The position numbers and the translations under genes were made by a program. DNA of 61,435 bases from Desulfobacteraceae bacterium (GTDB lineage Bacteria > Desulfobacterota > Desulfobacteria > Desulfobacterales > RPRI01), in NCBI GenBank assembly GCA_011391695.1, contig JAABQB010000013.1, forward strand, positions 1-61,435, written 5' to 3'. Position 1 is the stretch's first letter; each line of letters begins with the position of its first letter. Of this stretch, positions 1 through 61,309 are shown piece after piece. The notes under the pieces were generated by a model that worked only from the letters and a program-made list of their open reading frames with translations, ran no database searches and had not been told where the DNA came from.

Positions 1-3
1 AAA

Positions 4-41
4 GGCAGGCCGGATTTCCTCTAGAGGACTTCCGGCCTGCC
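4..41. repeat. GC-rich palindrome at the contig end
   Basis: GGCAGGCCGGA is mirrored by TCCGGCCTGCC around a CTCTAGAG centre, with three mismatched positions on each side of the core. It can form a long hairpin and lies at the very end of the sequence. It could be a terminator of an unseen upstream gene or a REP-like palindrome. Its position at both contig ends suggests that the assembly stopped in it. Confidence 0.8.
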
Positions 42-97
42 GGTCTATTTAAATATGCTTTTAATCCCGGGATTGAATGAAGAGATATCCAATCCTA

Positions 98-126
98 TTG
101 ACATTGACAATTAACAAATCTATACA
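98..126 (+). promoter_or_regulatory. Candidate sigma-70 promoter of pstB, with tandem TTGACA
   Basis: TTGACA at 98-103 is followed after 17 bases by TATACA at 121-126. A second TTGACA directly abuts the first (104-109), giving a 6-base direct repeat that could also be part of a regulator site such as a degenerate Pho box. Transcription from this promoter would begin near 133, leaving almost no leader before ATG 138. Either a downstream start is used or a different promoter acts. Confidence 0.4.
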
Positions 127-137
127 GGTTTATAATC

Positions 138-1040
138 ATGCAATTGATCGAACCATCAGCCGGAATGTTCGAACATAACATACAGATGACAGCTGAAAAA
201 CCACAAAAATCAGGGGAAACATTCGGAGGCAAAACACTGGTCAGCCGGGACAGTCGCCGGACTGTGGGCGATATTAGCGTTGAAGATCCCCGCATGTTCT
301 GCCGGAACGTGGATGTTTTTTACGGTGACAAGCAGGCCATTAAAAATGTTTCCCTGGAAATCGGATACAATGAGGTTCTGGCGATGATCGGGCCGTCCGG
401 ATGCGGCAAATCGACTTTTATCCGCTGTCTGAACCGCATGAACGATACCATTGCGGGGTGCCGGGTCAGCGGGGAAATATTGCTGGACGGCAAAAACATC
501 TATGCAAAGGATGTGGATGTGGTCCCCTTGCGGGCCCAGGTCGGCATGGTGTTCCAGAAACCCAACCCCTTTCCCAAGTCCATCTATGACAATGTTGCTT
601 ATGGCCCGCGCATCCACGGACTGGCCGAAAGTAAAGCCGAACTGGATGAAATCGTCGAAACCTCGCTGGTGAAAGCCGGTTTGTGGAACGAGGTCAAGGA
701 CATCATGAATCAATCCGGCACAAGCATTTCCGGCGGCCAGCAGCAGCGCCTGTGCATCGCCCGGGCCATTGCCGTCAGTCCAGAGATCATCCTGATGGAT
801 GAACCCTGCTCGGCGCTCGATCCCATTGCCACCTCCGTCATTGAAGACCTGATGGATGAACTGCGCAAACAGTACACGATTGTGATTGTGACCCATTCCA
901 TGCAGCAGGCGGCCCGGGTTTCCCAGCGCACCGCCTACTTTCATATGGGGGACCTGATCGAAGTGGGCCCTACCCCGATGATTTTTACCCGGCCGAGCCA
1001 CCAATTAACCCAGGATTATATTACCGGCCGTTTCGGCTGA
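138..1040 (+). CDS. pstB: Phosphate ABC transporter ATP-binding protein PstB
   Basis: PstB is the ATPase that drives high-affinity phosphate import through the PstC/PstA membrane channel. The 300-residue product has Walker [10 protein letters not shown] (85-93), a Q-loop in [10 protein letters not shown] (137-146), the ABC signature SISGGQQQR (196-204), Walker B ILMDEP (218-223) and the H-loop histidine 253. The P-N-P-F-P stretch after the Q-loop is typical of PstB. Usual length is about 250-260 residues; the extra 40 or so at the N-terminus are not conserved in the family as I know it, and ATG 165 or 186 are possible true starts. No pstSCA genes are visible because the contig ends upstream. 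phoU follows 12 bases later, so the pair is co-transcribed. An identical inverted copy lies at 60396-61298. Confidence 0.95.
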
Positions 1041-1052
1041 TAAGGAGTTAAT

Positions 1053-1709
1053 ATGGCAAAACATTTTCAGAGAGAACTTGAAAAAATCAAAAAAAGCATC
1101 CTGAGCCTGGGCGCTATTGTGGAAGACCGGGTAAGGCTCGCCATAAAAAGCATTGAAAGCAGGGATGCCGCCATTGCAGAGCAGATCATCAATATGGACT
1201 ATGAAATAGATGAAATGGAAGTGGAGATTGAAGAAGAATGCCTGAAGGTGCTGGCGCTGCATCAGCCGGTTGCCGTGGATCTTAGATTTCTGGTAAGTGT
1301 GATTAAGATCAATAATGATCTTGAAAGAATAGCGGATGAAACCGTAAATATCGCCTATCGCATCAAAGTCATTTCAAAAAATAAAGATTGCAAATTCATT
1401 TTTGATTATGCGCTGATGGCTGAAAAAGCCAGTGCTATGCTCAGAATGAGTCTTGATGCCATGGTTGGGCTCGATACGGATATGGCTTTTAAAGTCTGCC
1501 TCATGGATGATGATGTTGATGTTTTTGTTCGGAATACATATGAGCAGCTTAAACTGTCTATTCTTAAAACACCCGGGGACGCTGGCACTTTATTAAATAT
1601 GTTTTTGATTTCACGGCATATAGAACGCATCGCCGACCATGCGACCAATATTGCCGAAGAAGTCATCTATGTGACTGATGGCGAGATTGTCCGGCACGGG
1701 AATTTTTAA
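1053..1709 (+). CDS. phoU: Phosphate signalling protein PhoU
   Basis: PhoU is the cytoplasmic negative regulator that couples Pst transporter activity to PhoR/PhoB signalling. The 218-residue, all-helical product contains two PhoU repeats. The metal-binding-type motifs are visible as NNDLERIADE in the first half and SRHIERIADH in the second. Length matches the family (about 215-240). The start has a good ribosome-binding site (AAGGAG, 1041-1046). The gene follows pstB as in the classical pst-phoU operon. Its 3' end overlaps the convergent tatD by four bases. Confidence 0.95.
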   Translation: MAKHFQRELEKIKKSILSLGAIVEDRVRLAIKSIESRDAAIAEQIINMDYEIDEMEVEIEEECLKVLALHQPVAVDLRFLVSVIKINNDLERIADETVNIAYRIKVISKNKDCKFIFDYALMAEKASAMLRMSLDAMVGLDTDMAFKVCLMDDDVDVFVRNTYEQLKLSILKTPGDAGTLLNMFLISRHIERIADHATNIAEEVIYVTDGEIVRHGNF

Positions 1710-2491
1710 GAAGGATTGACATTGAATAACCGGCAGGTGTTTTCAAAGATTTTTTGAGAAAGCGCTTCAGGGTCTTCTTTTCTTACTTCTGCAATTTTTA
1801 ATAGCACTGATTTAACAAAAGCAGGTTCATTACGCCGGGTGCCGTTTTTTTCCGGAGCGGGTGTCAGATAAGGCGCGTCGGTTTCAATGAGGATGCGGTC
1901 ATCTGGAATCATTGTGATCAGGTTTCGTAACTTTTCGCCACGGCTCATGATTGTCACAATTCCGGTTATGCCTATGTAAAGCCCCAGATCAAGGTATTCT
2001 TTAAGCTCCTTTCGGCTACCACTAAAACAGTGCATAACTCCTTTGCATTCTTCATTATAATTGGATTTCAATATCTCAAGAAACCTGCCGTTGCTTTCTC
2101 TTTCGTGAAAGATCAGCGGGAGGCCAAGTTCATCTGCGGCTTCAAGCTGATTTATAAACCACTTTTCCTGGACATCTTTCGGTGAAAACATCCGGTTGAA
2201 ATCAAGCCCTATCTCACCCCAGGCTTTAACTTTTTGATTTTCTGAGAGATCCTTTAGAAAATTTATTGTTCTGTCGCTGCATTCTTTAGCATCATGCGGA
2301 TGGACGCCTATGGAGGCATAACAGCCTGAATTTTCTTCAGCAATTTTGGCGGCTTTTGCCGAGCTTTTACCGTCTATTCCGACTATCATAATTTTGCTTA
2401 CTCCGGCAATTTTAGCTCTATTTATTACGGAATCCAGATCCTTTTCATATGCCCTGTCATCCAGGTGAGAGTGGCTGTCAAATAATTTCAT
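1706..2491 (-). CDS. tatD: TatD family metal-dependent hydrolase
   Basis: A TIM-barrel metal-dependent deoxyribonuclease of the TatD/YcfH family, 261 residues, the usual length. Visible metal ligands are the HxH pair (H7, H9 in SHSHLD), E93 in GEIGLDF, H129 in FHERES, H154 in MHCFSG and D205 in ETDAPYLTP. In other bacteria TatD-type enzymes act in DNA repair and fragmentation or as 3'-5' exonucleases; the substrate here is unknown. It is convergent with phoU, with the stop codons overlapping, and has no partner in its own operon. Confidence 0.93.
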   Translation of the reverse strand: MKLFDSHSHLDDRAYEKDLDSVINRAKIAGVSKIMIVGIDGKSSAKAAKIAEENSGCYASIGVHPHDAKECSDRTINFLKDLSENQKVKAWGEIGLDFNRMFSPKDVQEKWFINQLEAADELGLPLIFHERESNGRFLEILKSNYNEECKGVMHCFSGSRKELKEYLDLGLYIGITGIVTIMSRGEKLRNLITMIPDDRILIETDAPYLTPAPEKNGTRRNEPAFVKSVLLKIAEVRKEDPEALSQKIFENTCRLFNVNPS

Positions 2492-2909
2492 TCAATCTCC
2501 GTGCCTTTGCTGCAGGTTAATATTGACGGCTTCGGAAAAAGTCATTCTGCTGTGTTGCACTTCATCTTTCGTCATTGCAGCGTATCAGTAAGTACCCTTC
2601 ATTCCTAAAGATTCGTGCGCCTTGCATAATGAGCTTTTTACTTTGCCGTCTGAAATTCGGCTTTTTACGTGTCCATCATCTTATTATTGTTAAATGCATG
2701 ATGCGTTTAGCATTTAAAATTGAATAATTCAAGATAACGGTTTCTGATAAAACTCAATTTAATTTTGAAGTTGATTTAATAGCTATAATGTGGTTTTTAG
2801 GAATCCTGTATAAATTGGTTCACCGGTTATTGGTGACTTCAAATGGCAGGCATAATTGAAAATGCTGCCGTATTTTATAATATATTAATTATTTGTACTG
2901 GAGGTTGTG
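2492..2909. other. Intergenic region with a palindromic element, no gene
   Basis: About 415 bases between divergent tatD and nfnA. The part nearest tatD holds a repeat element (2523-2678). The rest, especially 2690-2890, is AT-rich and shows no convincing reading frame. It should contain the promoter of nfnAB; a ribosome-binding site GGAGG (2900-2904) precedes the nfnA start. Confidence 0.6.
2523..2678. repeat. Dispersed repeat element with imperfect inverted ends
   Basis: It begins TTGACGGCTTCGGAAAAAGT at 2523 and ends GGCTTTTTACGTGTCCATC, so the two ends form an imperfect inverted repeat of about 20 bases. The TTGACGGCTTC...AAAAAG unit recurs at 10523-10543 and, in the opposite orientation, at 21083-21104. 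This resembles a non-autonomous MITE- or REP-like family scattered between genes. Confidence 0.55.
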
Positions 2910-3740
2910 ATGTTTAAAATTGTGAAACGTGAAGAGATGGCTGGGGGCACTGTGATTCTGAATGAAATCGAAGCGCCTTTGATTGCCCAAAAGGCAAAGC
3001 CGGGCCAGTTTGTGATCATAAAGGCCAACGAAACAGGAGAGAGGATTCCGTTGACAATGGCGGATACCGACCCGAAAAAGGGAACAATAACAGTGATATA
3101 CATGGTTGTTGGAAAATCGACGGCTCTTTTCAAAACACTGAAAGTAGGGGAAGGCTATAAGGATGTTATAGGCCCCCTGGGAAAACCTACCCACGTTGAA
3201 AAAGTCGGGACTGTCGTCTGCGTTGGAGGCGGAACAGGCGTTGCGGTTCTTCATCCGATTACCAGAGCGCTTAAAGAGGCCGGGAACCACGTGATAGGAA
3301 TTATCGGCGCGAGAAACAAGGGGCTTCTTATTCTTGAGGAGCAGATGAAGACTGCTTCAAGCGAGCTTCATGTATGCACCGATGACGGATCGTACGGACA
3401 TCACGGTTTTGTCACGGAGGTATTAAAAAAGATGCTTGAAACAAAGGACGTAAAGCTTGTTGTGGGAATCGGCCCTGTTCCCATGATGAAATTCGTATCC
3501 AAGATGACCAAGGAATTTAATGTCAAAACGCTCGTAAGCCTTAATCCTATAATGATTGACGGGACAGGAATGTGCGGGGGGTGCCGTGTATCGATCGGAG
3601 GCGAGACAAAATTTGCATGTGTGGACGGGCCGGAATTTGACGGCCACCAGGTTGATTATGATGGCCTAATGCAGCGTCTCCAGGCATATTGTGAGGAAGA
3701 GAAGGAATGTTACGGAACATTCTGCAAGATGAACCCGTAG
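2910..3740 (+). CDS. nfnA: NfnA-like ferredoxin-NADP+ reductase small subunit (sulfide dehydrogenase subunit beta type)
   Basis: The FAD- and [2Fe-2S]-carrying small subunit of NADH-dependent reduced ferredoxin:NADP+ oxidoreductase, which links the NADH, NADPH and ferredoxin pools by electron bifurcation. The N-terminal FAD domain carries RIPLT (45-49, the RxxS/T flavin motif). The NAD(P) domain has VCVGGGTG (103-110). The C-terminal cluster motif is MCGGC...FAC (C222, C225, C237); in structurally known NfnA the fourth ligand is an aspartate. ATG 2910 is preferred over GTG 2907 because GGAGG lies five bases upstream of it. The large subunit follows 85 bases later. The same fold is used by dihydroorotate dehydrogenase electron-transfer subunits, but the pairing with nfnB argues for NfnA. 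Confidence 0.88.
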   Translation: MFKIVKREEMAGGTVILNEIEAPLIAQKAKPGQFVIIKANETGERIPLTMADTDPKKGTITVIYMVVGKSTALFKTLKVGEGYKDVIGPLGKPTHVEKVGTVVCVGGGTGVAVLHPITRALKEAGNHVIGIIGARNKGLLILEEQMKTASSELHVCTDDGSYGHHGFVTEVLKKMLETKDVKLVVGIGPVPMMKFVSKMTKEFNVKTLVSLNPIMIDGTGMCGGCRVSIGGETKFACVDGPEFDGHQVDYDGLMQRLQAYCEEEKECYGTFCKMNP

Positions 3741-3825
3741 TCATTTTTTCGTTGTTTGTTATGGCCGGTTATCAATATTTTTATACAGTTTCGAATTCAA
3801 TCGGAATTTTTATACGGAGGATTAT

Positions 3826-5247
3826 ATGGCTGAAGAAGAGGTAAAAAAAGGAAAGAAAGAGGCGGTTCCAAGGCAGCCCATGCCGGAGCAGGCTCCGGAA
3901 GTAAGAAGAAGAAATTTCAAGGAGGTTCCGATCGGATATACTCCTGAGACTGCGATGCTGGAAGCGCAGAGATGTCTTCAATGCAAAAAGCCGGGCTGTG
4001 TTGATGGCTGCCCGGTCCAGGTTGATATCCCGGGTTTTATAAATCATATAAAAGAAGGGAATTTTACTTTGGCGGCAAGGCTGCTATGGCAGAAAAACTC
4101 TCTTCCTGCCGTCTGCGGAAGGGTATGCCCGCAGGAGATACAGTGTGAAGGAAATTGTATTGTCGGAAAGAAAGGTCAGCCTGTCGCAATAGGGCATCTT
4201 GAAAGATTTGCCGCCGATTATGAGAGGATTAACGGAAAGGGAGAGCTTCCTCCCAAAGCGCCGCCTACAGGCAAAAAAGTTGCTGTTGTCGGCTCGGGAC
4301 CTTCCGGACTTACCGTTGCGGGTGATCTTATTGCAAAAGGGCATGAGGTTACGGTGCTTGAGGCCTTTCATAAGCCGGGCGGGGTGCTTGTTTATGGAAT
4401 TCCGGAGTTCAGGCTTCCTAAGGAGATTGTATTTTCAGAAGTTGCCTTCATGGAAAAACAGGGCGTAAAGCTTGAATGCAACAGTGTTGTGGGAAGAACG
4501 GTTACGCTCGATGAGCTTTTTGCCGAGGGCTATGATGCTGTTTATGTCGGTGTGGGAGCCGGACTTCCGACATTCATGAATATTCCCGGCGAAAACCTTA
4601 TCGGGGTTCTTTCCGCAAACGAATATTTGACCCGAGCTAACCTGATGAAGGCCTATCTCTTCCCGGAATATGATACGCCTATTGTCAAGGGTAAGAATGT
4701 AGTTGTCCTCGGCGCCGGAAACGTCGCAATGGACTCTGCACGGACTGCAATGCGCCTCGGCGCGGATAATGTTAAAATAGTTTACAGACGATCGAGACAG
4801 GAGATGCCTGCAAGGGCTGCCGAGATTCATCATGCCGACGAAGAAGGGATAGAATTCTTCCTGCTTACGGCTCCAACCCGTTTCCTCGGAGACGAAAAGG
4901 GGAGAATTACCGGCATGGAATGCCTCAAGATGGAACTCGGAGAACCCGACCAGTCGGGAAGACGCCGGCCTATCGCGATTAAGGGCTCGGAATTTAAAAT
5001 GGATTGCGACCTTGTGATAGTTGCCGTCGGAGCGGGCGCGAACCCGCTGCTCACCCAGTCAACACCTGAACTCTCTTTAAACAAGCGCGGTTACATCATT
5101 GCTGATCCAGAGACCGGCAAAACCACAAAGAAGGGCGTGTGGGCAGGCGGCGATATTGTGACGGGTTCCGCGACCGTTATTCTTGCCATGGGAGCCGGGA
5201 GAAAAGCCGCCGACTCCATTCACAATTATCTTAAGTGGGGATGGTAG
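3826..5247 (+). CDS. nfnB: NfnB-like large subunit (glutamate synthase small-subunit homologue, GltD/SudA type)
   Basis: A 473-residue flavoprotein. An N-terminal bis-[4Fe-4S] domain has C50, C53, C58 and C62 plus C97, C101, C107 and C111. A first nucleotide-binding motif VVGSGPSG begins near residue 154, and a second, VVVLGAGNVAMDSART, lies near residue 290. The closing GGDIVTGSATVILAMGAGR is the flavin-binding end of the GltD family. With no glutamate synthase large subunit nearby and nfnA directly upstream, NfnB is more likely than GltD. RBS GGAGG lies seven bases before the ATG. It is followed by a strong intrinsic terminator, so nfnAB is a two-gene operon. Confidence 0.88.
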   Translation: MAEEEVKKGKKEAVPRQPMPEQAPEVRRRNFKEVPIGYTPETAMLEAQRCLQCKKPGCVDGCPVQVDIPGFINHIKEGNFTLAARLLWQKNSLPAVCGRVCPQEIQCEGNCIVGKKGQPVAIGHLERFAADYERINGKGELPPKAPPTGKKVAVVGSGPSGLTVAGDLIAKGHEVTVLEAFHKPGGVLVYGIPEFRLPKEIVFSEVAFMEKQGVKLECNSVVGRTVTLDELFAEGYDAVYVGVGAGLPTFMNIPGENLIGVLSANEYLTRANLMKAYLFPEYDTPIVKGKNVVVLGAGNVAMDSARTAMRLGADNVKIVYRRSRQEMPARAAEIHHADEEGIEFFLLTAPTRFLGDEKGRITGMECLKMELGEPDQSGRRRPIAIKGSEFKMDCDLVIVAVGAGANPLLTQSTPELSLNKRGYIIADPETGKTTKKGVWAGGDIVTGSATVILAMGAGRKAADSIHNYLKWGW

Positions 5248-5318
5248 TGAACGGGAAAAGGGTCAAAGGCACAGATGCACAAAGTCAGAAGAAAGTGAAG
5301 AGTAAATTGTGAGTCGTC

Positions 5319-5352
5319 AAAAAGCCGGGAAGGAATCCTTTCCGGCTTTTTT
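5319..5352 (+). terminator. Rho-independent terminator after nfnAB
   Basis: AAAAGCCGGGAAGGA is followed by TCCTTTCCGGCTTTTTT, giving a perfect GC-rich stem with a T-run, 71 bases after the nfnB stop. The symmetric A-run and T-run mean it could work in either direction. Confidence 0.9.
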
Positions 5353-5670
5353 ATGTTAAAGGCGCATCCGGCATATTCTTCAAATAAACATTTCCTTGAT
5401 ATAAGGAAATGTTTCATGCAATTCTTCCTAATAAAAAAAGCATGTCCCTGTTATTGTCCCCTCCTCCTCTTCAAAGCCCAACGGCTTGGAGCGGGGTATA
5501 AGAGGCCGCACGGGCCAGACACGAGAAAGGTCTCTGGCCAATTCTTGCAAGGCGTTATCGGGAGGCGCTGAGCGAGGCCAGATCATCAACCAATCCCTTG
5601 ATTTCTTGTATCGCTGACGATTTGGAGGCACAGGCATTTGTCTATCTTGAAGGTCAAGGGCGGCCCTGAA
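5353..5670. other. Intergenic region with two hairpins, no convincing gene
   Basis: A hairpin at 5386-5414 has arms AAACATTTCCTT and AAGGAAATGTTT. A second inverted repeat pairs GGCCAGA (5513-5519) with TCTGGCC (5533-5539). A 69-codon open frame on the minus strand (5428-5637) has no recognised domain and no clear ribosome-binding site; it may be a remnant. The start of the exported protein gene follows. Confidence 0.5.
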
Positions 5671-6618
5671 ATGAAAAAATTAGCGCTATGGTGTCTATTG
5701 ACCGGAATCGGCTTTTTTGTGTATCCCTTTTACGCGGGCGCGTGTTCCTGCACATGGAATGGCCCTTTTATTGCGGTATCAAAGGATGCTCCGCTGGTAA
5801 TTCATGGCCGGATTATTCGCCATCATCCCGGACAATCGCCGACCATGGATGTTCTCGTTTTGGAAACGTTAAAAGGGGGGATACTTGATTCCGGAATGGT
5901 TGTTCAGATGGGAGACGGGATGCACTGCCGACCGACACTCGAAGGCTTTACACCACAAAGTGAATGGATATTGGCACTAAATGGGCCAGGGGCGAAGCCC
6001 GGTGAGGGTTTTGCTCTTTCGCATTGCGGAGAGTATTGGCTCCGTGTATCAAATAGTGAAGTTATCGGCAGTATAGATGGCACACAGTCACTGGTAAAAC
6101 GCGTGGCTTTGGATGAATTCAAACTTAAGTTTCTATATCCTCGTTTTGGTGAAACATTCTCGGGGCGTATCAATCATGGGAAAAGATTCTATCGCCCATT
6201 TGGTTTCCGTTTCGAGTTCATCCTCGAGCCGATGTCTGACGGATGGGAAATCTTGATCAAAGAATATGGGCGCGACGAAAACATAGCGCGGCTAACCCCT
6301 CCTTTTCACTTTGCCCCCAATCCAAGGAATATCGAAGGATGGCATTTATCCGGGAATCCTTCCGGGTGCGTCTCGCGTCCCCATCTCGCCGAAGCTGGTA
6401 CTGCCAATCCAAGAAACTTTATTTTTTCCCCTGAAGTGGGGAAGCGCATTGACGGGCCAACTGCGGGCCGCGCGGTAACTGCTCAAGAAATCGAAGATAT
6501 CCGGCGTTTCGGTCGGGGCGTATTGACCATTAAAAAATACAAGCTTGAACCGGGCGGGGACGGTTGCTCGAAAATAGAATGGATGGAATTTTTCGTCCAG
6601 TTAGAAGGCGGATCTTGA
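5671..6618 (+). CDS. Exported protein with an N-terminal CSC, TIMP/NTR-like domain
   Basis: A 315-residue product if ATG 5671 is used. This start gives a clear signal peptide (MKKLALWCLLTGIGFFVYPF, cleavage expected just before CSC); an upstream TTG at 5638 would bury it. Mature protein begins C-S-C, continues with an F...A..V..G.I pattern and has further cysteines at HC and LSHCGEYW. That resembles the OB-fold netrin/TIMP-like domains of bacterial exported proteins, whose N-terminal cysteine pair forms disulfides. The C-terminal 150 residues are not recognised. The gene ends 46 bases before the RAYT element, so it may be a passenger or simply the insertion site. Function unknown. Confidence 0.6.
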   Translation: MKKLALWCLLTGIGFFVYPFYAGACSCTWNGPFIAVSKDAPLVIHGRIIRHHPGQSPTMDVLVLETLKGGILDSGMVVQMGDGMHCRPTLEGFTPQSEWILALNGPGAKPGEGFALSHCGEYWLRVSNSEVIGSIDGTQSLVKRVALDEFKLKFLYPRFGETFSGRINHGKRFYRPFGFRFEFILEPMSDGWEILIKEYGRDENIARLTPPFHFAPNPRNIEGWHLSGNPSGCVSRPHLAEAGTANPRNFIFSPEVGKRIDGPTAGRAVTAQEIEDIRRFGRGVLTIKKYKLEPGGDGCSKIEWMEFFVQLEGGS

Positions 6619-6664
6619 ATTGCTTTCCGGAATCACAGGGACGGAGTTTGCAATCAAACACTAT

Positions 6665-7758
6665 ATAGGGGACGTCCTAAACATTTAAACTTGATTAATA
6701 TATAGAGGTATGGTATTTAGAATTCATGCCAAGAAAATCAAGAATAGATGCTCCGGGAGCAATGCATCATATAATTGTCAGGGGAATCGACCGGCAGCAC
6801 ATATTTGAAAATGACGAAGATAGGAATAATTTCTTAAGCAGGCTCGGTGTTATCCTGACAGAAACAAAGACAGACTGCTATGCCTGGGCTTTGATGCCAA
6901 ACCATTTTCATTTACTGTTGAGAACAGGGAATGTTCCTATCTCAACTGTAATGAGACGACTTTTAACCGGATATGCTCTTTGGTATAACCGCAGAAAAGG
7001 CAGATACGGGCATCTGTTTCAGAACCGCTACAAGTCTATTTTATGCCAGGAAGACGGATATTTATTGGAGCTGGTACGCTACATCCATCTCAATCCTGTA
7101 AGAGCCGGAGTTGTGCTGGATTTAGATACACTGGACGGATATCCGTACTGTGGTCACAGCGTTTTAATGGGAAGGATAAAAATAGAATGGCAGAATAAGG
7201 ATAAGGTATTGGGGCTTTACGGTAAAAGAATCGGAGCTGCGAGACGAAAATACCGGCTGTTTGTAACCGAAGGGATTGACCAGGGGAAACGGACTGATCT
7301 CACAGGAGGGGGTCTTGTACGGAGCATGGGAGGATGGGCTGAGGTAAAAGCGCTTCGGGCAGCAAAGGTTTTTGAGAAAGCAGACGAAAGGATTTTGGGG
7401 AATGGTGATTTTGTAGAAAGCGTACTTAAATCCGCCGAAGAGAAGATGAAGAAGAAGTATGATCTTCAAGCTCGTGGTATTGAGTTAACCGATGTAGCGG
7501 TCAGAGTAGCCGAAGTTACGGGGATAGAGCAGGATAAAGTCTGGGCTGACGGGAAGAACCGGGATATTGTTCAGGCGCGAAGTCTTTTATGCTACTGGGC
7601 GGTAAGAGAGCTGGGTGTAACGATGACATTTCTTGCCCGCCTGCTGGATAAATCTGTAACGGCTATCGGAAAAGCCGTAATAAGGGGTGAGAAACTCGCA
7701 AAGGCATAACTATTTGCTGTTAGATAAGTAAGTTTAAATGTTTAGGGATGTTCCCTAT
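6665..7758 (+). mobile_element. RAYT transposase element, left copy, with about 28-base inverted ends
   Basis: The left end (6665-6692) begins ATAGGGGACGTCC and runs into TAAACATTTAAACTT. The right end (7730-7758) is its imperfect inverted copy, with GGGATGTTCCC in place of GGGACGTCCCC. One transposase gene fills the element (about 1.09 kb). The left end matches the ends of the right-hand element (53677-54771) better than it matches its own right end, which supports a hybrid or chimeric origin. Confidence 0.8.
6726..7709 (+). CDS. REP-associated tyrosine transposase (RAYT, Y1_Tnp/COG1943) with C-terminal helix-turn-helix
   Basis: A 327-residue single-strand-type transposase. The HUH histidines are in NHFH (59-62). 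The catalytic tyrosine is most likely Y119 in RYIHLNPVRAG, a RAYT hallmark. The C-terminal 100 residues (ARSLLCYWAVRELGVTMTFLARLL...) resemble the DnaA-type DNA-binding domain often fused to this family. The ATG follows the element's left inverted repeat. From codon 239 on it differs from the copy at 53703-54710 (for example A/S, R/I and N/S changes), and its stop comes earlier because of an indel near 7706. Confidence 0.92.
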   Translation: MPRKSRIDAPGAMHHIIVRGIDRQHIFENDEDRNNFLSRLGVILTETKTDCYAWALMPNHFHLLLRTGNVPISTVMRRLLTGYALWYNRRKGRYGHLFQNRYKSILCQEDGYLLELVRYIHLNPVRAGVVLDLDTLDGYPYCGHSVLMGRIKIEWQNKDKVLGLYGKRIGAARRKYRLFVTEGIDQGKRTDLTGGGLVRSMGGWAEVKALRAAKVFEKADERILGNGDFVESVLKSAEEKMKKKYDLQARGIELTDVAVRVAEVTGIEQDKVWADGKNRDIVQARSLLCYWAVRELGVTMTFLARLLDKSVTAIGKAVIRGEKLAKA

Positions 7759-8280: not shown

Positions 8281-8478
8281 CTAGTCCGGCCGGAAGCAGC
8301 TTCGCCCATATCTGATGAATTCAAATTATCTTGCAGAGATATGCCTTGGCAGCAAATTATAGGAATGCGCAACAGGATTGTACATGCGTATTTCGATATT
8401 GATTTCGAACTTGTTGAAAGCACCGTTAAATACGATCTGCCTCCCTTAATCGAGAGGTTGAAAAAATCATTTCGGAAG
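8281..8478 (+). pseudogene. 3' remnant of a HepT-like (DUF86) HEPN toxin gene
   Basis: The frame through 8293-8469 reads EAASPISDEFKL, then DMPWQQIIGMRNRIVHAYFD, ending LPPLIERLKKSF. This is the C-terminal half of HepT-type HEPN ribonucleases, with the RxxxxH motif (RNRIVH) intact. The N-terminal half is missing, no start is apparent, and the frame runs without a stop into the end of the Smr gene. No MNT antitoxin gene is next to it. Likely a decayed toxin-antitoxin locus. Confidence 0.65.
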
Positions 8479-8751
8479 AGAAATAGATTTTTTCAGCTCT
8501 ACTATGGTTGCACCCCATCCTCCTGCTTCCATCGGAGCATCTTTGAATGATTCGACAAGGGGGCTTATCTTTAAAAATTCCACGACTCCTTTTTTAAGAA
8601 TTCCTCGGCCTTTTCCATGTATTACACGCACTGTGAAAATGCCTTTTTTTATGCATTCGGAGAAATATTCGGAAAGAAGATCGGAAACCTCTTCCGGCCT
8701 GAAGGTGTGCAGGTCTATAAAATCTTCAATGGGTATTTTAACAGGGTTCAT
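8467..8751 (-). CDS. Smr domain protein
   Basis: A 94-residue stand-alone Smr domain, the module at the C-terminus of MutS2 that binds or nicks DNA or RNA. The hallmarks are the DLHTFRPEEV segment (residues 13-22), VIHGKGRGILKKGV, and a C-terminal GGWGATIVEL. ATG 8751 (MNPVKIP) is chosen. A TTG at 8814 would add 21 residues encoded partly by a short repeat and is less likely. Function in the cell is uncertain; single-domain Smr proteins are common in this phylum. Confidence 0.82.
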   Translation of the reverse strand: MNPVKIPIEDFIDLHTFRPEEVSDLLSEYFSECIKKGIFTVRVIHGKGRGILKKGVVEFLKISPLVESFKDAPMEAGGWGATIVELKKSISLPK

Positions 8752-8790
8752 ATTAAATTTCGTTAATGGTTCCCCATTATATGAAATTAA

Positions 8791-8826
8791 GGGGTCAAGG
8801 ATTCCAGGGGTCAAGGGTTCAAGTGG
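8791..8826. repeat. Short direct repeat of GGGGTCAAGG units
   Basis: Two to three near copies of a GGGGTCAAGG(A/G)TTC unit lie between the Smr and DUF1848 genes and include the stop of the latter. It is a short simple repeat with no assigned role. Confidence 0.5.
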
Positions 8827-9709
8827 TCACAGGAAGAAGTGACTGCGAATCCGGGTCATGTTTCTTATGATTTATTTTTGCCTTTTCAAAACTGGTTGCC
8901 GCATAACAATACCGGCATCCGTAAATGCACGAGTCATACATTCCCATATCTTTGCTTGAAACGCAATTGCAACTTTTTCTCTGGGAAGGGTCTTTTTTTA
9001 AATCAAGGTTTTTCCCGAAAATCTTTGAAATGTAGATATCATCTATGCATTTTCCGGCAGGAACACCGAAGCCGGTCAGGTCTTTTTTTGAAGCGCAGCT
9101 TTTTATCTCAATTGCGTTATTTTCTGCAATTTTGACCAGAGAGCTTAAAAGGTCGGGCAAATTCGAATCATTCAATTCGTAAAGAACAAAACCGGTATCA
9201 TTCAGCCTTTTTAATCTTCCTTCTATCTTTCTGTAAATATCGACGAAACTTATTATGCACCGGAAAGTATGACCGCGCAACCTGTCTGCAATAAACTCAA
9301 ATCGCTGTTTGTGAAATTCTATATCTGTAACATTGCTTAATACTATCGGATCATATCGCCAGATTACCTTTTCAGGGCCAATAAGATCGGATAATTTCCG
9401 GAATGTGTCGAGTGATATTTCAGGAGAAGGTGCTTTTGGATCAAGAATCCGGGGATTATCCATGAGGGTATACAAAAAATAATAGCTGTAACCCCGTGCA
9501 TCAAGTTCTTTTAAATGCGGAATAAGAGGTTTGGGATTGCGGGTCCAGAACACAAAAAGGTCAACGTTTTCTGGCTTAAGAGAAATATTTGAAATCTGGT
9601 TCGGGTTGAATGGATTTGGAACTGTGCAGAACCCCGCCCGGATCCTGCTCATAAACCAATCGGTATAAAATGCCGGGATATCGGTCCTGCGGCTTGCGCT
9701 TATAATCAA
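8819..9709 (-). CDS. DUF1848 family protein with C-terminal cysteine cluster
   Basis: A 296-residue protein beginning MIISASRRTDIPAFYTDWF, the characteristic start of DUF1848. It contains FVFWTRNPKP and a C-terminal cysteine group (CNC...CIYGCRYCYA) that resembles an iron-sulfur or radical-SAM-type cluster site. The start is TTG 9709, with GAAGGT seven bases upstream; no ATG fits the family's N-terminus. Biochemical function is not known. It lies 56 bases downstream of a metallophosphoesterase gene and may share its transcript. Confidence 0.85.
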   Translation of the reverse strand: MIISASRRTDIPAFYTDWFMSRIRAGFCTVPNPFNPNQISNISLKPENVDLFVFWTRNPKPLIPHLKELDARGYSYYFLYTLMDNPRILDPKAPSPEISLDTFRKLSDLIGPEKVIWRYDPIVLSNVTDIEFHKQRFEFIADRLRGHTFRCIISFVDIYRKIEGRLKRLNDTGFVLYELNDSNLPDLLSSLVKIAENNAIEIKSCASKKDLTGFGVPAGKCIDDIYISKIFGKNLDLKKDPSQRKSCNCVSSKDMGMYDSCIYGCRYCYAATSFEKAKINHKKHDPDSQSLLPVTT

Positions 9710-49436: not shown

Positions 49437-49709
49437 TATAACACTGTATTCCGAATTCTTTTTATATAGCCATGTAAACCGGAGGCAAAAAACAATTGCA
49501 TCATCTTAATTGAAGCTCCCCGCGGCAAGCTGCAAGGAATGCGCTCGTTGTTTCGGTTCAAATCCGGGCAAAATATATATCATGTAATTCATAATCGCAA
49601 CAATATCTTGAACAAAGCTGTATTATCAACAAATTCTTGATCTTAACAATATTCTCCTGTATATGAATCGGGGATACATCATATTTATCAATATATGTAT
49701 GGAGGAATT
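49437..49709. other. Intergenic region between divergent lpxC and comM
   Basis: Holds a GC-rich patch (49514-49575, with CCCCGCGGCAAGCTGC and a GGTTCAAATCC string) that may be a remnant of a repeat element. The rest is AT-rich and should carry both promoters. GGAGG (49701-49705) serves comM. No gene seen. Confidence 0.5.
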
Positions 49710-51245
49710 ATGCTGGCAAAGGTTTTGAGTAGCGCGGTTATTGGCATAGATGCTTACCTTGTCGAGGTAGAGGTTGATATTGCTTCAGGGCTTCCTTCTT
49801 TTACAACAGTTGGGCTTCCTGAGACGGCAGTAAAAGAAAGCAGGGAACGCGTTAAATCTGCGATAACAAATTCAGGATATACTTTCCCCGATGACCGAAT
49901 AACCGTTAATCTCGCTCCGGCGAACATAAAAAAAGAGGGGACCGGCTTTGATCTGCCTATCGCACTGGGAATACTTTCCGCAACAGATATTATTAAACAG
50001 AAAATGCTTGAAAGGTATCTTGTTCTTGGTGAACTTTCACTGGATGGCCGTATAAAGCCTGTAAACGGATCACTTCCTATGGCCATAGCAGCCAGAGAAG
50101 CCGGTTATGAAGGTATAATAGTCCCTGTCGAAAATGGGAGGGAAGCATCGGTTATAAACGGAATTTCGGTGCTTCCGGCTGAAACTTTATCTCAAGCGGT
50201 TGATTTTTTTCGGGGTTTTACACATATTGAAACTGTTAAAACCGACATAAACTCGTTGTTTGAAAAAAACTGCCAGTCTGAAGTCGATTTTTCTGAAGTG
50301 AAGGGACAGGAGCATGCAAAAAGGGCGCTTGAAATTGCAGCGGCCGGAGGTCATAATCTTATCATGATAGGTCCTCCCGGATCAGGCAAAACCATGCTTG
50401 CGAAACGCATTCCATCGATATTGCCTCCAATAACATTTGAAGAAGCGCTTGAGACAACAAAAATTTACAGTGTTATTGGAATGCTTCCCAAAGGGGATGC
50501 TCTTATTACTAAGAGGCCTTTCAGGTCGCCGCACCATACGATTTCAGATGCTGGTTTGATAGGCGGCGGACATATTCCGAGGCCGGGTGAAGTGAGCCTT
50601 GCGCATAATGGAGTCCTTTTTTTAGATGAGCTTTCCGAATTCAAGAAGCATGTGCTTGAGGTTCTCCGGCAGCCGCTAGAAGATTTAAAGGTAACTATTT
50701 CAAGAGCTTCTTCGGCTATCACATATCCTTCAAGTTTTATGCTCGTGGCAGCGATGAATCCCTGCCCGTGCGGCTACTTATCGGACCCCAAGCATGAGTG
50801 CAGATGCACATATCAGCAGATTCACAGGTACAGGGCAAAAATCTCGGGGCCGCTTTTGGACCGCATGGATATCCATGTTGAAGTGCCGGCGGTTCCTTAC
50901 AGGGACTTGGCGGGGGAAGTTAACGCTGAATCTTCCGAGGATATCCTGAAACGCGTAACCGATGCCAGAGCGATCCAGTCAGAGCGGTTCAGGCAGATGA
51001 AAATATACTGCAATGCACAGATGAACAGCCGGCATATTAAAAAGCACTGCAAGATTGATGAAGCGTCGAGCAACCTTCTGGAGTCTGCCATAGATAAGCT
51101 GGGTCTTTCGGCAAGGGCATTTAACCGTATTTTAAAGATTGCCAGAACTATAGCAGACCTGGAGGGTAAGGAAGAAATCTTATCACAGCATATCGCCGAG
51201 GCGATACAATATCGTAACCTGGACAGGAGAAAGGCGTTTCATTAA
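49710..51245 (+). CDS. comM: ComM/YifB-family Mg-chelatase-like AAA+ ATPase
   Basis: A 511-residue hexameric helicase-type ATPase that promotes branch migration of incoming DNA in natural transformation in species studied. An N-terminal ChlI-like domain ([31 protein letters not shown]) is followed by Walker [13 protein letters not shown], Walker [12 protein letters not shown], and a cysteine group [20 protein letters not shown] 49710 has GGAGG four bases upstream; an ATG at 49695 overlaps it. The type IV pilus operon in the same window makes competence conceivable, but no other com gene is seen. Confidence 0.95.
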
Positions 51246-52634
51246 ATTGTTGTTTTCAATGTGCCGAATGGTTTCTGTGAGAAGTTCCAGCGCCTCACAA
51301 TCTTGGGCGTTGTACCTGAGTAGCTTTTCTTTAATTGATCTCTCATGCATATTCTCCCAAAAGTGCCGCCATGCGATGGATAGAAGCCCTTAGCAATCAG
51401 GGTCTGTCCAATTAAAGCCGAGAAAGCCTGCTGTTTCCTTTAGTCCGTTAGAGAGCCCGGGAAAATAAATCTGTGCATAAATAATTGTAAGGATATTTAC
51501 AGATTCTGTAATAGATTTCTTCAGATTAGTCTCTTCAATAGGTTCCCCATACCGTTCACACATCTTTTTCAGAAAAGTCCTTTCGAAGCTACCATAATGT
51601 ACAAGAATCGGATTATCAATCGTTCTGAGAATGTAAATAAACTCCCGCCATATTGTTTCTTCATCTTCGGTACTATTTGCCCATAGACTGTGTTGAACAA
51701 TAGACTCACCCTTTCTGATTCTCAATCCGATGAGATAGTAAAAATCACGATCTGGCAATCCCTCAACGTCAAGGGATACCGGTGTGCCTTCTATTTTTAT
51801 CTCTGGATTGCCGACAATATGGATTTTCTTTTCTCTAATTGCGAGCGCCTTGAGGGAGTAGTGATACTTCTCGCTTTTGTCTCGTTGCCGTTTGGAGCGA
51901 CGACGGGGCCGAAAAGTGTAGGACAATTGTGTCACAGTAAAAATACCTTTACTGTTTAATTTCTTACGTTCTTTCTCAGCCATGCCTGTCAGCAGACTGA
52001 GATCGTCTTTTTCTATTGCTTTCTGTCGACACCGGTCTTGGTACTTGCACTCTGGGCAGTTAAGATTAAGTATGAGGTCGGGCGGTGATTTGTCCTTCAG
52101 CATCTTCACAATCTTTCCCGTGAGCTTCCGAACTTCACCCGTCAAGACAGACGTCTATACCTTAAATGCGGCATTTCCGTTACCATGGATGATTTTTCCA
52201 TGGGTAATCTCTCGTCCGATCATTTCCGACAGCACAAACGCATCAAATGTCAGAAGAAGCTTGTCACTCTTAGTAAGCTTATTGACAAAATTGAAACGGA
52301 TTGGTACGAATTGAACCGGTTTATCTTGGCCATGAGAAGGTAATTGTTCCACGGCATGCAGATGGGATTCCAAATTTCTCTTTTTTGCTACTATCCCTAT
52401 TGCCAACCTCCATGAAGCTGTCTTTATGTCCACTGGTGCAGATGGCAATGCAACATATTCGCTTCCTTGGAATTTATCTATCAATTTCTCAAGCCCCGCA
52501 GTGCGGTAAGCATGATTCTGCATCCGGATGAAATCCAAGTAAACATTCTCTTCGCCTTTTTCGCCAAGACAAAACTGCCAGCATTTGTAAGGGCACTTAA
52601 TGTAGGCTTCAAAGATTGGTGTGGAAATGATCAT
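51246..52634 (-). pseudogene. RecB-like nuclease (TM0106 family with RNase_H_2 domain), split by two in-frame stops
   Basis: One reading frame encodes the whole protein but is broken by TAG at 52155-52157 and TAA at 51390-51392. The first part (52634-52155) begins MIISTPIFEAYIKCPYKCW, a Cas4/RecB-type nuclease domain. The second (to 51390) has the CPECKYQDRCR cysteine motif and the RNase H-like segment VSLDVEGLPDRDFYYLIGLRI. After the second stop the frame continues with GLLSIAWRHFWE and YNAQDCEALELL, the expected C-terminus. No frameshift is needed. The frame then runs into the end of the convergent comM gene. Two separate short proteins are possible, but inactivation is more likely. Confidence 0.8.
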
Positions 52635-52662
52635 TGAGTTTAAGTTGGAGAAATAATACAGA

Positions 52663-53058
52663 TTATCGGCAGGTCAACGCCTTGATTGCGGTGACAAACT
52701 CCTGTGCTGCTAATACCGCGTGGCGGGCATCTTCCTCAGATACTTCGGCAAAATCCCTGTAATCCAATTCCATGCGTTTATCGAACAGGTCATAAAGCAT
52801 CTTGGCAAAACGTGCATCAAGCTTCCCGGGAAAGATAAATTCTTTATTGAAAATCCCTATCACACCGGAATGTTTGGATGTTTTGTGAGGTGTGTTGGAG
52901 TGAATAAACAGTGCCAGAACCGCATAGAACATCGCATAGTACGACCGGTTAACAATTGAACGTGGAGAAAAGTCGGCTTCCAGCATCCTGACCGCCTCAG
53001 AAAGTGTTTCCTCGGTTTGCCTCATGCGGTAACCAAAAATGGTTTCACGATCTGTCAT
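52663..53058 (-). CDS. HEPN domain protein of a HEPN/MNT toxin-antitoxin pair
   Basis: A 131-residue helical protein of the HEPN family (PF05168 type): PRSIVNRSYYAMFYAVLALF is the signature helix. RxxxxH of the HepT subclass is not obvious. It overlaps the upstream nucleotidyltransferase gene by four bases (ATGA). Such pairs are toxin-antitoxin or regulatory modules in which the MNT partner modifies or neutralises the HEPN protein. Confidence 0.85.
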   Translation of the reverse strand: MTDRETIFGYRMRQTEETLSEAVRMLEADFSPRSIVNRSYYAMFYAVLALFIHSNTPHKTSKHSGVIGIFNKEFIFPGKLDARFAKMLYDLFDKRMELDYRDFAEVSEEDARHAVLAAQEFVTAIKALTCR

Positions 53059-53378
53059 ACTGGAACCCCTTCTTCCATTATTACACGAACAATAGGGGAT
53101 GAACGTAAGGGAGAATTTTCAATCTCGTGTCTACTGAACAAAAGCGTAGTGACAACAATTCCGCTTTCCAGCGTCATCTCCCAAGCAGCGTTTTTAATCC
53201 TGTTCCTCAGCTCTCTGTCAATTGTCTCAAATTCCATAAAAATATCCATATCGGAATATTCATCGGCATCGCCACGTGCGCGGGAGCCAAAAAGCCGGAA
53301 ATCAATCAGCGGTGTTAGTTTTGATACGCGTTTTTTCAACTCCCTGGCTGTTTGAATATCATGTTCAATAATGGGCAT
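53055..53378 (-). CDS. MNT-type minimal nucleotidyltransferase (antitoxin)
   Basis: A 107-residue nucleotidyltransferase. Its pattern is FRLFGSRARGDADEYSDMDI: GSRARG at 31-36 and metal aspartates D43 and D45. The third acid is probably near E59. These enzymes AMPylate the HEPN toxin in characterised systems. It precedes the HEPN gene in a two-gene operon near the transposon. Confidence 0.86.
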   Translation of the reverse strand: MPIIEHDIQTARELKKRVSKLTPLIDFRLFGSRARGDADEYSDMDIFMEFETIDRELRNRIKNAAWEMTLESGIVVTTLLFSRHEIENSPLRSSPIVRVIMEEGVPV

Positions 53379-53676: not shown

Positions 53677-54771
53677 ATAGGGGACGTCCTAAACATTTAA
53701 ACTTACTTATCTGACAGCAAATAATTATTGGCCTTTGCGAGTTTCTCGCCCCTTATTACGGCTTTTCCGATAGCCGTTACAGATTTATCCAGCAGGCGGG
53801 CAAGAAATGTCATCGTTACACCCAGCTCTCTTACCGCCCAGTAGCATAAAAGACTTCGCGCCTGAACAATATCCCGGCTCTTCCCGTCAGCCCATACTTT
53901 ATCCTGCTCTATCCCCGTAACTTCGGCTACTATGACCGCTACATCGGTTAACTCAATACCACGGGATTGAAGATCATATTTCTTCTTCATCTTTTCTTCG
54001 GCGGATTTAAGTACGCTTTCTACAAAATCACCATTCCCCAAAATCCTTTCGTCTGCTTTCTCAAAAACCTTTGCTGCCCGAAGCGCTTTTACCTCAGCCC
54101 ATCCTCCCATGCTCCGTACAAGACCCCCTCCTGTGAGATCAGTCCGTTTCCCCTGGTCAATCCCTTCGGTTACAAACAGCCGGTATTTTCGTCTCGCAGC
54201 TCCGATTCTTTTACCGTAAAGCCCCAATACCTTATCCTTATTCTGCCATTCTATTTTTATCCTTCCCATTAAAACGCTGTGACCACAGTACGGATATCCG
54301 TCCAGTGTATCTAAATCCAGCACAACTCCGGCTCTTACAGGATTGAGATGGATGTAGCGTACCAGCTCCAATAAATATCCGTCTTCCTGGCATAAAATAG
54401 ACTTGTAGCGGTTCTGAAACAGATGCCCGTATCTGCCTTTTCTGCGGTTATACCAAAGAGCATATCCGGTTAAAAGTCGTCTCATTACAGTTGAGATAGG
54501 AACATTCCCTGTTCTCAACAGTAAATGAAAATGGTTTGGCATCAAAGCCCAGGCATAGCAGTCTGTCTTTGTTTCTGTCAGGATAACACCGAGCCTGCTT
54601 AAGAAATTATTCCTATCTTCGTCATTTTCAAATATGTGCTGCCGGTCGATTCCCCTGACAATTATATGATGCATTGCTCCCGGAGCATCTATTCTTGATT
54701 TTCTTGGCATGAATTCTAAATACCATACCTCTATATATTAATCAAGTTTAAATGTTTAGGACGTCCCCTAT
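53677..54771 (-). mobile_element. RAYT transposase element, right copy, with perfect 28-base inverted ends
   Basis: The two ends (53677-53704 and 54744-54771) are exact inverted copies beginning ATAGGGGACGTCC. It is 1,095 bases and carries one transposase. The perfect match of the two ends suggests this copy is the intact one, and that the flank at 54772-61435 truly belongs to it. Confidence 0.85.
53703..54710 (-). CDS. REP-associated tyrosine transposase (RAYT), right copy
   Basis: A 335-residue transposase. The NHFH motif and Y119 are as in the left copy (6726-7709); the first 238 codons are identical. In the last quarter it differs (S for A, I for R, S for N, several silent changes), and a small indel extends the C-terminus by eight residues into the inverted repeat. 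The C-terminal helix-turn-helix (TMTFLARLLDKSVTAIGKAV) is intact. Confidence 0.92.
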   Translation of the reverse strand: MPRKSRIDAPGAMHHIIVRGIDRQHIFENDEDRNNFLSRLGVILTETKTDCYAWALMPNHFHLLLRTGNVPISTVMRRLLTGYALWYNRRKGRYGHLFQNRYKSILCQEDGYLLELVRYIHLNPVRAGVVLDLDTLDGYPYCGHSVLMGRIKIEWQNKDKVLGLYGKRIGAARRKYRLFVTEGIDQGKRTDLTGGGLVRSMGGWAEVKALRAAKVFEKADERILGNGDFVESVLKSAEEKMKKKYDLQSRGIELTDVAVIVAEVTGIEQDKVWADGKSRDIVQARSLLCYWAVRELGVTMTFLARLLDKSVTAIGKAVIRGEKLAKANNYLLSDK

Positions 54772-54817
54772 ATAGTGTTTGATTGCAAACTCCGTCCCTG
54801 TGATTCCGGAAAGCAAT

Positions 54818-55765
54818 TCAAGATCCGCCTTCTAACTGGACGAAAAATTCCATCCATTCTATTTTCGAGCAACCGTCCCCGCCCGGTTCAAGCTTGTATT
54901 TTTTAATGGTCAATACGCCCCGACCGAAACGCCGGATATCTTCGATTTCTTGAGCAGTTACCGCGCGGCCCGCAGTTGGCCCGTCAATGCGCTTCCCCAC
55001 TTCAGGGGAAAAAATAAAGTTTCTTGGATTGGCAGTACCAGCTTCGGCGAGATGGGGACGCGAGACGCACCCGGAAGGATTCCCGGATAAATGCCATCCT
55101 TCGATATTCCTTGGATTGGGGGCAAAGTGAAAAGGAGGGGTTAGCCGCGCTATGTTTTCGTCGCGCCCATATTCTTTGATCAAGATTTCCCATCCGTCAG
55201 ACATCGGCTCGAGGATGAACTCGAAACGGAAACCAAATGGGCGATAGAATCTTTTCCCATGATTGATACGCCCCGAGAATGTTTCACCAAAACGAGGATA
55301 TAGAAACTTAAGTTTGAATTCATCCAAAGCCACGCGTTTTACCAGTGACTGTGTGCCATCTATACTGCCGATAACTTCACTATTTGATACACGGAGCCAA
55401 TACTCTCCGCAATGCGAAAGAGCAAAACCCTCACCGGGCTTCGCCCCTGGCCCATTTAGTGCCAATATCCATTCACTTTGTGGTGTAAAGCCTTCGAGTG
55501 TCGGTCGGCAGTGCATCCCGTCTCCCATCTGAACAACCATTCCGGAATCAAGTATCCCCCCTTTTAACGTTTCCAAAACGAGAACATCCATGGTCGGCGA
55601 TTGTCCGGGATGATGGCGAATAATCCGGCCATGAATTACCAGCGGAGCATCCTTTGATACCGCAATAAAAGGGCCATTCCATGTGCAGGAACACGCGCCC
55701 GCGTAAAAGGGATACACAAAAAAGCCGATTCCGGTCAATAGACACCATAGCGCTAATTTTTTCAT
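54818..55765 (-). CDS. Exported TIMP/NTR-like CSC protein, right-arm copy
   Basis: Identical to the product of 5671-6618: signal peptide starting MKKLALWCLL, then a mature N-terminal C-S-C and an OB-fold-like domain. Its end is 47 bases from the inverted repeat of the right transposon, as on the left. Start at ATG 55765. Confidence 0.6.
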   Translation of the reverse strand: MKKLALWCLLTGIGFFVYPFYAGACSCTWNGPFIAVSKDAPLVIHGRIIRHHPGQSPTMDVLVLETLKGGILDSGMVVQMGDGMHCRPTLEGFTPQSEWILALNGPGAKPGEGFALSHCGEYWLRVSNSEVIGSIDGTQSLVKRVALDEFKLKFLYPRFGETFSGRINHGKRFYRPFGFRFEFILEPMSDGWEILIKEYGRDENIARLTPPFHFAPNPRNIEGWHLSGNPSGCVSRPHLAEAGTANPRNFIFSPEVGKRIDGPTAGRAVTAQEIEDIRRFGRGVLTIKKYKLEPGGDGCSKIEWMEFFVQLEGGS

Positions 55766-56188
55766 TTCAGGGCCGCCCTTGACCTTCAAGATAGACAAAT
55801 GCCTGTGCCTCCAAATCGTCAGCGATACAAGAAATCAAGGGATTGGTTGATGATCTGGCCTCGCTCAGCGCCTCCCGATAACGCCTTGCAAGAATTGGCC
55901 AGAGACCTTTCTCGTGTCTGGCCCGTGCGGCCTCTTATACCCCGCTCCAAGCCGTTGGGCTTTGAAGAGGAGGAGGGGACAATAACAGGGACATGCTTTT
56001 TTTATTAGGAAGAATTGCATGAAACATTTCCTTATATCAAGGAAATGTTTATTTGAAGAATATGCCGGATGCGCCTTTAACATAAAAAAGCCGGAAAGGA
56101 TTCCTTCCCGGCTTTTTGACGACTCACAATTTACTCTTCACTTTCTTCTGACTTTGTGCATCTGTGCCTTTGACCCTTTTCCCGTTCA
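55766..56188. other. Intergenic region, mirror of 5248-5670
   Basis: Contains the mirrored hairpins (56022-56050 and 55897-55923) and the nfnAB terminator. No gene recognised. Confidence 0.5.
56084..56117 (-). terminator. Rho-independent terminator after nfnAB, right-arm copy
   Basis: Mirror of 5319-5352: perfect stem AAAAGCCGGAAAGGA/TCCTTCCCGGCTTTT with flanking A- and T-runs. Confidence 0.9.
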
Positions 56189-57610: not shown

Positions 57611-57695
57611 ATAATCCTCCGTATAAAAATTCCGATTGAATTCGAAACTGTATAAAAATATTGATAACCGGCCATAACAAACAACGAAAAAATGA

Positions 57696-58526
57696 CTACG
57701 GGTTCATCTTGCAGAATGTTCCGTAACATTCCTTCTCTTCCTCACAATATGCCTGGAGACGCTGCATTAGGCCATCATAATCAACCTGGTGGCCGTCAAA
57801 TTCCGGCCCGTCCACACATGCAAATTTTGTCTCGCCTCCGATCGATACACGGCACCCCCCGCACATTCCTGTCCCGTCAATCATTATAGGATTAAGGCTT
57901 ACGAGCGTTTTGACATTAAATTCCTTGGTCATCTTGGATACGAATTTCATCATGGGAACAGGGCCGATTCCCACAACAAGCTTTACGTCCTTTGTTTCAA
58001 GCATCTTTTTTAATACCTCCGTGACAAAACCGTGATGTCCGTACGATCCGTCATCGGTGCATACATGAAGCTCGCTTGAAGCAGTCTTCATCTGCTCCTC
58101 AAGAATAAGAAGCCCCTTGTTTCTCGCGCCGATAATTCCTATCACGTGGTTCCCGGCCTCTTTAAGCGCTCTGGTAATCGGATGAAGAACCGCAACGCCT
58201 GTTCCGCCTCCAACGCAGACGACAGTCCCGACTTTTTCAACGTGGGTAGGTTTTCCCAGGGGGCCTATAACATCCTTATAGCCTTCCCCTACTTTCAGTG
58301 TTTTGAAAAGAGCCGTCGATTTTCCAACAACCATGTATATCACTGTTATTGTTCCCTTTTTCGGGTCGGTATCCGCCATTGTCAACGGAATCCTCTCTCC
58401 TGTTTCGTTGGCCTTTATGATCACAAACTGGCCCGGCTTTGCCTTTTGGGCAATCAAAGGCGCTTCGATTTCATTCAGAATCACAGTGCCCCCAGCCATC
58501 TCTTCACGTTTCACAATTTTAAACAT
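57696..58526 (-). CDS. nfnA: NfnA-like small subunit, right-arm copy
   Basis: The 276-residue product is identical to that of 2910-3740: FAD domain with RIPLT, NAD(P) loop GGGTG, C-terminal [2Fe-2S] cysteines. ATG 58526 is preceded by GGAGG. Confidence 0.88.
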   Translation of the reverse strand: MFKIVKREEMAGGTVILNEIEAPLIAQKAKPGQFVIIKANETGERIPLTMADTDPKKGTITVIYMVVGKSTALFKTLKVGEGYKDVIGPLGKPTHVEKVGTVVCVGGGTGVAVLHPITRALKEAGNHVIGIIGARNKGLLILEEQMKTASSELHVCTDDGSYGHHGFVTEVLKKMLETKDVKLVVGIGPVPMMKFVSKMTKEFNVKTLVSLNPIMIDGTGMCGGCRVSIGGETKFACVDGPEFDGHQVDYDGLMQRLQAYCEEEKECYGTFCKMNP

Positions 58527-60383: not shown

Positions 60384-60395
60384 ATTAACTCCTTA

Positions 60396-61298: not shown

Positions 61299-61309
61299 GA
61301 TTATAAACC

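Follow-up and report, generated by a model that had tools for sequence, protein, structure and literature searches.

A likely assembly misjoin between inverted copies of a TIR-flanked Y1 transposase element writes one flank twice in a Desulfobacteraceae contig

The stretch of DNA analysed here (the window, 61,435 nucleotides) is the entire contig C21 of genome G000 and contains no N. It begins and ends with the same sequence in inverted orientation, and we consider an assembly misjoin with a misplaced left arm to be the best reading of this arrangement, likely (at roughly three chances in four) but not proven. According to this reading, which relies on sequence comparison, two inverted RAYT copies flanked by terminal inverted repeats (TIRs) bound a core of about 46 kb. 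The copies are about 3% diverged over their last 316 bases and, leftward of position 7442, would be identical over at least one assembler word. At the left copy, the assembler would have switched from the path of the left element to that of the right element and continued into the flank (1-6664, called flank X in the following), which would thereby have been written twice and should properly adjoin the right element. The sequence that truly borders the core on its left would have been lost; it probably consists of the right end of another contig, C45, together with one to a few kb of DNA not found in the contigs searched. Three observations characterise the join: near-identical repeats are present at it, the duplicated flank is otherwise single copy, and the resulting gene order conflicts with that of relatives.

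The G000 assembly comprises 2,816,055 bases in 116 contigs, with 97.99% completeness and 0.24% contamination. Base-by-base comparison showed that bases 1 to 7441 of the window are the exact reverse complement of its final 7,441 bases, and the first mismatch was found at 7442. A repeat finder placed the arms at 1-7705 and 53731-61435 with a rounded identity of 100%. Beyond 7758, the left and right copies are unrelated. The left copy of flank X (1-6664, plus strand) is the exact reverse complement of 54772-61435 and is, on the basis of this identity and of families, probably a misplaced duplicate. The copy at 54772-61435 (minus strand) is probably the correctly placed one, as suggested by the identity and by the gene order in relatives. 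Flank X carries pstB, phoU, a tatD-like gene, genes for two oxidoreductase/GltA-type subunits and a gene for a 326-aa protein without Pfam hit. No third copy of it was seen in the G000 contigs searched, in which the sampled short contigs were masked. At 2518-2678 it includes a dispersed repeat of about 150 bp with 28 other G000 matches of at least 90 bases and very many in the same genus; Rfam gave no match in the window at the gathering threshold, this repeat included. Both arms terminate at the identical base, at a strong hairpin (4-41, repeated at 61395-61432) detected by self-match and folding. Such identical ends fit a flank written twice as well as a real repeat with outer branches that could not be resolved, and evidence from outside the contig is therefore needed. 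A linear replicon ending in hairpins, with terminal repeats of 7.4 kb, was also considered and was rejected on judgement, the PstB, PhoU, TatD-type and GltA-type genes looking chromosomal.

The left element (6665-7758, plus strand), recognised by Pfam and by its TIRs, contains an ORF at 6726-7709 encoding 327 aa, and the right element (53677-54771, minus strand), which has perfect 28-bp TIRs, an ORF at 53703-54710 encoding 335 aa. The element ORF matches the Pfam family Y1_Tnp (PF01797) with an E-value of 5.8e-12 and 46.2 bits against a cut-off of 23, which identifies it as a Y1 transposase. At the C-terminus, Bac_DnaA_C (PF08299) was matched with E-values of 0.00068 (left element) and 0.00026; the scores of 20 and 21.4 bits fall short of the curated cut-off of 31.5. 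Apart from the two window copies, a 1.2-kb element query found in G000 only fragments of 66-85% identity or matches of TIR length; in contig C25, about 2.3 kb (50915-53235) contain three fragments similar to the 3'-terminal part of the element (77-78% identity). The part of the left element specific to this copy (7442-7758, plus strand) differs from the right copy by 12 substitutions and two indels. In left coordinates, the substitutions are at 7442, 7457, 7470, 7472, 7504, 7541, 7558, 7688, 7710, 7721, 7749 and 7752, and the indels are at 7706 (2 bp) and 7745 (1 bp). An earlier note on this DNA had described the copies as identical before 7442 and about 3% different from there on. The identity holds over all 7,441 bases, and the eight substituted positions and the indel near 7706 that it named are correct, while its list omitted the last four substitutions and the 1-bp indel. 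The divergence of about 3% corresponds to eight substitutions in the 268 coding bases from 7442 (3.0%), three of which change the protein (A249S, R260I and N278S); an indel accounts for the different protein lengths of 327 and 335 aa. Of the 1,093 element positions counted (6665-7757), only the final 316 contain any of the 14 events, a clustering expected with a probability of about 3e-8 if the rate were uniform.

The same note had taken the break at 7442 as the site of the misjoin. This position marks only where the copies become distinguishable. Since an assembler can switch only where the copies are identical, the switch would have to be sought before 7442, within 6665-7441 (plus strand), the part of the element that was observed to be identical in both copies and is expected to contain the misjoin. 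These 777 identical element bases of the left arm may stem only in part from the left element. Gene conversion ending at 7442, which the earlier note had offered as the alternative, may have occurred but is not required: a run of 129 identical bases is present even inside the diverged part, and a divergence of 3% together with a stretch identical by chance is therefore sufficient. A palindrome produced by whole-genome amplification, an artefact named in one abstract (PMC13265396), would likewise make the left arm an artefact but would not explain the fork inside the transposase. Available parts of a study of genomes and metagenome-assembled genomes (Genome Res 2020, PMC7111523) state that misassemblies are expected at perfect repeats in reverse-complement orientation that exceed the span of read pairs, where the intervening segment can be flipped, and name identical transposon copies as a cause of non-unique joins. 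The window resembles that case in having its probable misjoin at near-identical transposase copies in reverse-complement orientation; it differs in that one flank is doubled within one contig, which makes the contig palindromic, and not a segment flipped, a form that those parts of the study do not describe. A literature search at the level of titles and abstracts found no direct description of palindromic or inverted-end contigs in metagenome-assembled genomes.

The TIRs had been brought forward as a further argument, in that the outer TIR of the left copy matches the ends of the right element and not its own inner end. The observation itself was reproduced: the outer TIR of the left copy, ATAGGGGACGTCCTAAACATTTAAACTT, matches the reverse complement of the inner one, ATAGGGAACATCCCTAAACATTTAAACTT, at 26 of 29 positions, whereas the two 28-bp TIRs of the right copy, which carry a GGGGACG tag, match at 28 of 28. 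The match of the outer TIR with the right element is a consequence of the 7,441-base identity and therefore no independent evidence. In addition, among 32 other TIR-bearing elements, a set chosen for matching TIRs, the two ends differed at no position in eight elements, at one in nine, at two in six and at three or more in nine, so that three differences between the ends of the left copy are nothing unusual. On account of the nine elements with three or more, the TIR mismatch was rejected as proof of a chimera. The inner TIR of the left element (7730-7758, minus strand) retains the tandem repeat described below and has lost the GGGGACG tag. The GGGACG part of this tag was found in both searched flanks of 30 of the same 32 elements and is absent from the inner end of the left copy; in a wider set of 46 elements, which includes both window copies and some with short flanks, it was present within 200 bases of 75 of 92 ends. 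The argument from the inverted repeats is thus weak rather than void, the loss of the tag at the inner end being the rarer feature.

The outside evidence came from gene order in nine relatives of the same genus (G001-G009). A marker gene of flank X (3826-5247) occurs once, with 86-97% identity, in six of them (G001, G002 and G004-G007); in G009 it is partial, the region being divided over two contigs, and no such match was seen in G003 and G008. Outside the genus, G017 and G021 each have two divergent paralogues of this gene. Two full copies of flank X were not seen in any same-genus relative. Position in the core was followed with genes at its left end (core-left: an Smr-domain gene and DUF1848, 8467-9709, minus strand) and at its right end (core-right: YifB-like, RecB-like and a HEPN and nucleotidyltransferase pair, 49695-53378). 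The last two genes adjoin each other at 52663-53378 and resemble an MNT/HEPN toxin-antitoxin pair. Two more short dispersed repeats, with many occurrences in same-genus genomes, lie at 8790-8826 and 49510-49562. Where they were found in relatives, core-left, core-right and the main block of flank X are on separate contigs (flank X and core-left, for example, in G007 and G001), with the exception of the pstB-phoU pair of G005. On the core-left contig of G005, this pair (62-63% aa identity) is located some 21 kb outward of the core-left genes and is oriented differently from the pair in the window, which speaks against the misjoin. Flank X adjoining core-right was not seen in any relative, which also counts against it.

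In G007, the genes outward of core-left encode an AMP-binding enzyme of the acyl-CoA synthetase type, an ArsP_1-type permease and a MOSC/FdhD protein. Of these, the MOSC/FdhD gene has its G000 match at the right end of contig C45, where the alignment reaches to within 2 bases of the contig end. C45 ends at 27680 within an ArsP_1-type permease gene, the last 34 codons of which match the C-terminus of the 369-aa permease of G007. For the rest of the permease gene and for the AMP-binding gene, DNA search gave no match in G000 except two weak stretches of 69%. The region at 20000-27680 of C45 (L210) and core-left likely border one and the same assembly gap from its two sides. The C45-end gene is found on the contig of core-left, in the same relative orientation, in G007 (at about 3 kb), G008 (about 15 kb) and G001 (about 14 kb). 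Over the nine relatives, the two were thus together in three and apart in one (G005); G002, G006 and G009 were uninformative because their contigs end close to core-left, and in G003 and G004 the C45-end gene had no match beyond short repeats. Further C45 genes follow in order beyond MOSC/FdhD in G007, although this relative has no counterpart of a 14.7-kb portion of C45. The left neighbour of the core is therefore more likely C45 than bases 1-6664, to judge from these comparisons.

That core-left keeps its C45-side neighbour in three relatives is one reason for which we favour the left arm as the artefact, and it also bears on the reading of the arms as a real large inverted duplication of flank X and the 5' part of the element, segmental or by long conversion, with 7442 as its true end. 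A sharp end within a homologous element is indeed what a conversion tract would leave. However, the copies show no difference in 7,441 bases, both arms end exactly where the contig does, and none of the same-genus relatives has two full copies, and a duplication of this kind appears improbable.

As a control, the other two G007 adjacencies were mapped. The neighbour of core-right falls inside C94 (near 60941 of 70344) and the neighbour of the inner side of flank X inside C83 (near 68311 of 74917), and both contigs continue past these points with other ORFs. Gene order is thus unstable, two of the three tested G007 adjacencies being broken inside G000 contigs, and the assignment to C45 could therefore fail too. 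The same two matches would suit an arrangement in which both junctions of flank X are wrong, X carrying a third transposase copy that leads to other DNA and all copies having been collapsed, since neither partner is flank X or the core. Against it, C83 and C94 run on with other ORFs, four core TIR words were not found in the stretches read, and the right element is complete, its two ends matching each other; we regard this arrangement as the least probable of those weighed here. The misjoin at the left copy accommodates the mapping more simply: core-right and flank X have both lost their G007-type neighbours and the neighbour of core-left is a loose contig end, so that the simplest solution would join core-right to flank X and core-left to C45, by parsimony and not by proof. 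The join to C45 in G000 itself is what we infer.

The end of C45 shares no 16-base word with the window, and core TIR words are likewise absent from it, which counts against the join to C45. When 63 sequences from contig ends were compared (40 starts and 20 ends, with the end of C45 and both ends of C21), there was one real exact overlap of at least 15 bases, of 53 bases between the start of C1 and the end of C10, and the rest were masked N. Because overlaps are nearly absent overall, a missing overlap at C21 says nothing. Upstream of flank X in G007, the search gave no neighbour contig for the outer end of X, and the segments beyond flank X, core-left and core-right shared few genes among the relatives. 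The assembly was further searched for another flank attached to the 5' half of a RAYT copy, as the earlier note had proposed, and none was found in the G000 contigs searched, where all eight of the sampled starts of contigs below 3 kb were masked. This absence counts against the misjoin, although a short contig with such a half could have escaped the search. Such a second flank on the same element half is predicted if the core is an invertible segment, that is, if the inverted transposase copies undergo homologous recombination, so that the 46 kb are flipped in part of the population, both junctions of flank X are real in different cells and the assembler merged both forms. Inverted copies with 777 identical element bases do flank the core, and repeated flips would tend to homogenise them, but the data do not require inversion, and we hold it to be unlikely, if somewhat less so than a real duplication. 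We retain the misjoin as likely; the proposal that 1-6664 belongs with the right element is favoured by the gene order of the relatives, with the position of the join moved to the left of 7442.

The window element is an ordinary TIR-flanked RAYT ('TIRYT'), a type also called subclass 2.1. In the available text of Di Nocera 2013 (PMC3733652), TIRYTs or TIRtrons are described as RAYT-like Y1 transposases with long TIRs, some of which share the motif GGGGWSAS, and solo TIR copies occur in some genomes. The window element likewise combines a Y1 transposase with long TIRs and dispersed solo TIR copies: a 23-base TIR pattern had 17 matches in G000 with at most three mismatches, three of them in the window, and its reversed control had none. 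It differs in its tag GGGGACGT, which fits GGGGWSAS at six of eight positions. According to the accessible portion of a classification of TnpA-REP proteins (BMC Genomics 2018, PMC6006769), most described TIRYTs belong to subclass 2.1 (RAYT group 1), which has a Y1 core and, in a subgroup, a Bac_DnaA_C-like C-terminal domain, and for which nearby REPs were not found. The window element shares the Y1 core and has a weak C-terminal match to a DnaA-like helix-turn-helix. The same portion points out that the consensus of the TIRs does not resemble a DnaA box, and questions whether the C-terminal domain recognises it, or else supposes a new target.

The TIRs of the family (6665-6692 and 53677-54771 in the window, and loci L105-L199) combine an invariant GGGGACG tag with a following tandem pair of words of about 7-8 bp, which are specific to the element, are spaced by 8 (sometimes 9) bp and co-vary within elements. 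At a shift of 8, picked out from a scan over several shifts, TIR self-match was 0.458 against 0.294 in shuffles (z 9.4) for 44 elements with one end each, some closely related and both window copies included. For the 31 non-redundant left ends of the 47 found, the match within elements was 0.426 against 0.319 between elements, which was reached in none of 2,000 permutations; the corresponding counts were 98 of 2,000 at shift 9 and at least 409 of 2,000 at the other shifts from 5 to 12. This tandem pair is not mentioned in the available text of PMC3733652 or PMC6006769, from the TIRs of the former of which it sets the window element apart, and it bears on the doubt voiced in the latter about the target of the C-terminal domain. 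Tentatively, and with some doubt, the DnaA-like domain may read the paired TIR words and so tie the transposase to its own ends; the pattern was measured, the reader is a suggestion. C-terminal-domain similarity tracked TIR similarity weakly after correction for the N-terminal part (partial r 0.246, none of 999 permutations, 43 elements), and the correlation was gone among the 383 pairs with N-terminal identity below 60% (r 0.026).

In summary, the window provides a compact worked case in which a suspected misjoin was tested without reads, by means of gene order and loose contig ends. Its left end is probably misplaced and would then inform on the quality of the data and not on biology. Left uncorrected, the contig implies a 7.4-kb inverted duplication and an order from pst/phoU to the core that probably both do not exist in this organism, counts the six genes of the flank twice and conceals the real left neighbour of the core.
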